The notes below the pieces were generated by a model that saw only the letters and a program-made list of their open reading frames with translations, ran no database searches and was not told the DNA's origin. Shown here piece by piece: positions 2,051 to 2,510 of a DNA stretch of 39,058 nt (position 1 is the stretch's first letter; each line of letters opens with the position of its first letter). The translations under genes were made by a program, and so were the position numbers. This stretch comes from Bacteroidales bacterium Bact_08 (GTDB lineage Bacteria > Bacteroidota > Bacteroidia > Bacteroidales > UBA932), in NCBI GenBank assembly GCA_001603425.1, contig LUYZ01000069.1:1-39058 (forward strand), read 5' to 3'.

Positions 2051-2332
2051 CATCATACTACTTATGATGTTTTCTGGCTTACATCATACTACCTTATGAT
2101 GCTTGCTGGCTTACACCATACTACCTTATGATGCTTGCTGGCTTACATCATACTACCTTATGATGCTTGGTTGCTTACATCATACTACTTATGATGCTTG
2201 CTGGCTTACATCATACTACTTATGATGCTTGGTTGCTTACATCATACTACTTATGATGCTTGCTGGCTTACATCATACTACTTATGATGCTTGCTGGCTT
2301 ACATCATACTACTTATGATGCTTGGTTGCTTA
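2051..2332. repeat. Tandem array of nine 31/32-bp units, each a palindrome CATCATA-CTAC(C)T-TATGATG plus a 12-bp linker (CTTGCTGGCTTA or CTTGGTTGCTTA)
   Basis: Units read directly at 2051, 2082, 2114, 2146, 2178, 2209, 2240, 2271 and 2302; the inverted arms are perfect except for one T>C change in unit 3. Confidence 0.97.
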
Positions 2333-2510
2333 CACCTCACTCTCTTACTGTAACGAAGTTTTTTCAGAGGCACCTATTTTCTTTTCTGTTTTTTCGGGAA
2401 CTGCGGAACTCCTCACTGTCGTTCGTCAAACAGTCCTCGTCCTTTTCCTCAAAAACTATCAATAAAATAGGTAAAAACTTATGTTACAGTTTCGAGAGTG
2501 AGGTGTAAGA
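2329..2510. repeat. ~180-bp imperfect inverted-repeat element, possibly MITE-like or a structured RNA
   Basis: Outer arms CTTACACCTCACTCTCTTACTGTAAC (2329-2354) and GTTACAGTTTCGAGAGTGAGGTGTAAG (2483-2509) are complementary apart from a 2/3-nt internal loop. Inner segments AAGTTTTT and ACCTATTTT (separated by 8 nt) pair with AAAATAGGTAAAAACTT at ~2464-2480. Confidence 0.8.

Follow-up and report, generated by a model that had tools for sequence, protein, structure and literature searches.

A palindromic 31/32-bp tandem array at the foot of a dispersed hairpin element in a Bacteroidales genome

The window, i.e., the whole analysed stretch of 39,058 nucleotides of contig LUYZ01000069.1 from Bacteroidales bacterium Bact_08, carries near its start a pgpH-like gene on the forward strand (11–2041), identified as a 7TM-HD phosphohydrolase by the Pfam matches 7TMR-HDED (2.7e-16), HD (1e-15), and 7TM-7TMR_HD (2.4e-10). 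Its downstream neighbour, the convergent tRNA-Val (TAC) gene, occupies positions 2605–2680 of the reverse strand (ARAGORN), and the array described here lies between these two genes, where the first-pass annotation had placed it. From pgpH to tRNA-Val, the intergenic region consists of a 31/32-bp tandem array (2051–2334), a dispersed hairpin element (about 2337–2500), a second array of 15/22-bp units (2494–2561), and a bidirectional terminator-like hairpin with 17-bp arms (2569–2604). The folding energy of the latter is −17.5 kcal/mol on the forward strand and −21.0 kcal/mol on the reverse strand, with z scores of −5.7 and −7.4, respectively. The array locus is not conserved: the region downstream of pgpH is occupied in relatives by tmRNA or other genes, and the locus is absent from the nearest relative with pgpH, the protein of which is 68% identical.

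The 31/32-bp array, which lies beyond the left arm of the hairpin, is recognized by TRF with a period of 31, 9.1 copies, 93% matches, and a score of 478. Its nine units start at positions 2051, 2082, 2114, 2146, 2178, 2209, 2240, 2271, and 2302; units 1 and 5–9 are 31 bp long and units 2–4 are 32 bp long, in exact agreement with the original description. The palindrome CATCATA-CTAC(C)T-TATGATG, with arms of 7 bp, was likewise found in every unit as described, with one arm substitution in unit 3 (CACCATA). The 12-bp linkers between the palindromes are essentially two variants of one sequence, and a CRISPR array was rejected because there are no unique spacers. As in a minisatellite or VNTR, the units are arranged head to tail, are near-identical, and have a length within 10–100 bp; since their variants also form block-like patterns, the array appears to have been amplified recently. 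The exact copy number of this 284-bp array is not assured because the source assembly, a draft that is 80% complete (1.88 Mb), is fragmented into 169 contigs. The array itself is far above chance expectation. The palindrome is less far beyond it and only moderately unusual: 2.3% of random 31-mers from the window, and 0.7% of shuffled units, contain perfect arms of 7 bp or more with a loop of 3–8.

A search of the whole genome and of its relatives for the palindromic motif, suggested in the first-pass annotation, confined it to the array locus in its own genome and 24 congeners. The 20-bp form of the palindrome, with up to two mismatches allowed, is found in the draft genome only at the array locus, and BLAST of the whole array against the same genome yielded no second place of note; a REP/BIME assignment was rejected on the basis of this single locus. 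The unit is absent from 24 other genomes of the genus, and the motif from phages, plasmids, and viral contigs. An exact scan of ~85,000 species genomes (GTDB) returned two single matches, on Lokiarchaeota and Spiroplasma contigs, which are taken as unrelated and due to chance.

The hairpin element that follows is ~160 bp long and is flanked by two outer arms, identified by an inverted-repeat search and by the DNA fold. The left arm (CTTACACCTCACTCTCTTAC, 2329–2348, forward strand) comprises 20 bp, the first six of which are the end of the array, and is 100% complementary to the right arm (GTAAGAGAGTGAGGTGTAAG, 2505–2524). Folded either as RNA or as DNA, the element forms one long hairpin closed by this perfect 20-bp outer arm; the energy of the DNA fold of 2329–2524 is −37.7 kcal/mol (z −6.8). 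The part of the element covered by a covariance model, built from 17 copies, extends over residues 2359–2491 (match R1, E=1.5e-19), with a conserved apex at ~2402–2440 that follows the pattern CTGCGGAACTCCTC(A/C)CT..CG(T/G)TCGTCAAACAGTCCTCG. Positions 2326–2570 of the window have matches at no fewer than 12 further sites of the same genome, most of them with 86–96% identity over the element. With the covariance model, the count is 12 copies for this genome, 18 for G009 (a single contig), and one each for G004, G010, G017, and G021. The element is thus present in 6 of 80 genomes sampled from the family, all belonging to the same genus, with 1 to 18 copies per genome; the model found no copy in the other genera of the family, of which 74 genomes were sampled. 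There is no match to the element in Rfam, the only above-threshold Rfam match in the window being the tRNA, and none was found in plasmids. The gene contexts of the copies are mostly convergent or co-directional, with a divergent arrangement in 2 of the 25 scored. A Bacteroidota invertible promoter was rejected on account of these contexts and of the lack of the TAnnTTTG promoter in ten copies.

In G009, 15 of the 18 copies are on the same strand. In two regions of that genome (G009:C1:1933000-1948000 and G009:C1:2150000-2160000), the copies have one orientation and are spaced by 1–2.7 kb, with one or two genes between them. The intervening genes, in a cassette-like order, are those of GNAT, HipA-like, DUF2130, HsdR, AbiEi/AbiEii, and Cas9 proteins. 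Elsewhere in the same genome (G009:C1:287242-287659), two copies are located ~160 bp apart and enclose a small 21-bp tandem repeat. A related multicopy element found in G001, G013, G014, and G023 has only the apex core in common with the one described here, its arms being different, and one of its copies lies 28 bp away from a 44-bp array of 2.7 repeats.

The arms of the element differ from locus to locus. When the left flank of each copy was compared with the right flanks of all copies, including its own, the partner from the same copy was the best match in 15 of 19 cases, with scores of 21–58 vs an average of ~13 for mismatched pairs. The arm is a perfect 28 bp in G010 and reaches ~33 paired bases in the G009 copy at 774 kb. 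In what is apparently the same locus of G010 and G012, the arms have changed in a paired manner (CCTCCC/GGGAGG vs CCCCCC/GGGGGG), with the pairing kept. One conserved core is therefore found within locus-specific palindromes, a situation that could have resulted from insertion into existing palindromes, from local inverted duplication, or from selection for pairing. Taken by itself and in its original description, the array is nothing out of the ordinary; the element with its private arms is more unusual and raises the question of how one core comes to reside in different perfect inverted repeats.

Tandem arrays accompany the element at other loci as well. A 358-kb sample of the genome contains 41 intergenic regions of 200 bp or more. 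Arrays are found in five of them, namely in all 4 of the 4 regions that bear the element vs 1 of the 37 without it (Fisher p=5e-5); the sampled contigs were partly picked for element matches, which inflates the count of regions with the element but leaves the rate of arrays among them unaffected. The fifth, element-free array, on contig C95, runs off the contig end. An array with a TRF score of at least 50 is located within 400 bp of 9 of 11 element copies, compared with 3.6% of the sampled bases, with the reservation that the copies on C2, C53, C101, C131, and C167 are not independent because they have longer repetitive flanks in common. The plan of the window is repeated on contig C82 (18425-18830), where a 25-bp array of 4.8 copies, the element, and a 19-bp array of 7.6 copies follow each other between two convergent genes. 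The units are not shared among the loci, other element copies being accompanied by units of 25, 19, 15, or 113 bp. In G009, despite its 18 copies, only a few small arrays occur next to the element, so the arrays are not an inevitable result of the element.

The relation of the units to the ends of the element is clearest on the right-hand side. The right-hand array of the window (TRF scores 71 and 92) consists of the right arm (GAGAGTGAGGTGTAA...) repeated in tandem with units of 15/22 bp, and such a unit corresponds to the element's own end both in C82 (p=0.0005) and in the window (p=0.0045). On the left-hand side, the arm in C82 continues the array in register as a degenerate unit (22/25). 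In the window, the sequence that follows the 31-bp array matches its unit in register at 11 of 15 positions (P=0.00025; 0.004 if the shared CA is taken as given), and the match fades past 15 bases; in a free alignment, the similarity of the 31-bp unit to the end of the element is not significant (p=0.49).

These observations lead us to regard the 31/32-bp array as a minisatellite that probably expanded through slippage during replication at the base of the dispersed hairpin element. This account is supported by the dispersed nature of the element, by its hairpin arms, which close exactly at the edge of the array, and by the arrays present at other loci. A replication fork or a repair polymerase that meets the hairpin would stall at the base of the stem, slip back, and re-prime upstream, adding copies of the sequence just outside the arm. 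Once a few copies were available, ordinary slippage and unequal exchange would homogenize and extend the array. We infer the step that leads from stalling to an array; slippage on hairpin-bearing templates is documented for archaeal polymerases in vitro (PMC4134008). The palindrome within the 31-bp unit may aid slipping, although arrays in general do not need one, and under this account both the palindrome and the helical phasing of the units are incidental. The array would be mainly a by-product, at most giving the pgpH transcript a longer and more structured 3′ end before the terminator-like hairpin at 2569–2604 is reached. If this reading is true, the genome is a natural record of hairpins seeding bacterial minisatellites, with the same hairpin accompanied at several loci by different arrays on both sides. 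The closest of the earlier interpretations was the fallback to a neutral VNTR unique to the locus, which missed the dispersed hairpin element next door.

Several other explanations of the array were weighed against slippage at the hairpin foot. The units might form a protein-binding array on one face of the helix, similar to iterons, parS sites, or the sites of nucleoid proteins, since their core has dyad symmetry and the spacing of about three turns noted previously is numerically right: the mean of 31.4 bp corresponds to 2.99 turns, and all unit starts fall within 0.1 turn at 10.5 bp/turn. However, symmetry this strong has a 1–2% chance in any 31-mer, the motif does not occur elsewhere in the genome or in the 24 congeners, and the sister arrays beside the element, with periods of 25, 19, and 15 bp, are mostly out of helical phase, and in those measured no inverted repeat is longer than 4 bp. 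Moreover, no rep or par gene is found among the annotated proteins of the window, and the neighbours of the array are pgpH and tRNA-Val. The iteron- or parS-like interpretation is thus not supported; a binding array of any of these kinds appears very improbable, and the array is unlikely to have a protein-binding role of its own. Alternatively, the array might be a functional outer part of the mobile element itself, with subterminal repeats to which a transposase or recombinase binds, in the manner of foldback-type elements and their long terminal repeats made up of tandem sub-repeats. This would be in line with the multicopy, intergenic character of the element and with the presence, at two loci, of arrays directly adjoining either side of the hairpin. 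Such a role is improbable, though somewhat less so than the binding array, because one enzyme could not recognize by sequence arrays whose units differ at every locus; in addition, most copies have no array at their exact edge, and no transposase is known to be linked to the element.

An effect at the level of RNA, by which successive hairpins in the pgpH 3′ UTR would stabilize, process, or terminate the transcript, is unlikely, if slightly less so than the transposase-bound repeats. If transcribed from pgpH, the array precedes the only strong terminator-like hairpin, and its folding as a whole surpasses that of shuffled sequences (z −9.9 on the forward and −12.8 on the reverse strand), as would that of any palindrome array. 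On the other hand, single hairpins of −5 to −8 kcal/mol are weak, the substitution in the arm of unit 3 disrupts pairing on the forward strand, and the region 3′ of pgpH is not conserved in relatives. The hairpins proposed earlier to follow the pgpH stop codon are conceivable, with a weak fold of −5.3 to −8 kcal/mol in each unit. The related proposal of an amplified terminator did not stand: the T-tracts around unit 1 are present, yet T4 follows unit 1 only, the terminator scan is empty within the array, and the strong hairpin is found instead at 2569–2604. An array of intrinsic terminators was accordingly rejected and a terminator function of the array is unlikely, while a modest effect on the 3′ end of pgpH is possible. 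A comparably low probability is assigned to an independent neutral VNTR that lies beside the element merely by chance. Its palindromic unit is unlike those of other arrays and is not convincingly derived from the element, but arrays are rare away from the element and the end of the array coincides exactly with the start of the arm.

A broader proposal, which we consider doubtful although less remote than the explanations weighed above, treats the structure as a new genus-specific element in which a ~127-nt core with locus-private complementary arms would use template switching to create or preserve giant palindromes out of local sequence. The arrays would then be a trace of the same copying, and the copies that separate defence-type genes in a related genome would be part of a cassette-like organization.

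Among the systems known, the closest counterpart is BrickBuilt of Porphyromonas gingivalis, a species-limited, intergenic minisatellite-in-MITE with 10–20 copies and a 23-bp minisatellite (PMC4596501). Both are intergenic elements limited to a taxon and tied to a minisatellite, with long stem-loops, and the multicopy, intergenic, genus-limited distribution seen here is that of a BrickBuilt-type MITE, a likeness in organization and distribution; there is no Rfam match. In BrickBuilt, however, a single 23-bp unit, located between leader and tail and inside the terminal repeats, recurs in every copy (PMC4596501), whereas here each locus has its own unit, the 31-bp one being found at one locus, and the arrays are positioned outside or at the arms. 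The array with its element is therefore close to BrickBuilt without being a member of that family. Foldback-type elements, such as Galileo of Drosophila, have giant inverted repeats with tandem sub-repeats in their arms (PMC3573991), a combination that resembles the hairpin and arrays described here. They are eukaryotic transposons with a transposase relative, in contrast to this 0.16-kb element with private arms and no known enzyme. Bacterial VNTRs and minisatellites share with the array the near-identical head-to-tail units, the block-like variants, and the restriction to one species, but here the array is tied to a hairpin element. We regard the array as a minisatellite attached to a hairpin element of which the sources searched give no description. 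The REP/BIME and REPIN sequences of proteobacteria are short palindromic units that form intergenic arrays at 3′ ends and are dispersed in high copy. The array resembles them in its short palindromic units and its intergenic 3′-end position and differs in that its unit is found at one locus only.

Other repeats were observed in the same genome. The array at the end of contig C95 (16314-16493) consists of ~13 copies of a 14-bp unit (CTTTGCTATTCTCG) and is located just after a terminator-like hairpin. In turn, the intergenic islands around other copies of the element are long and repeat-rich, with tandem repeats of 52 to 195 bp and recurring CACGCACTCCGTCAGAG motifs.
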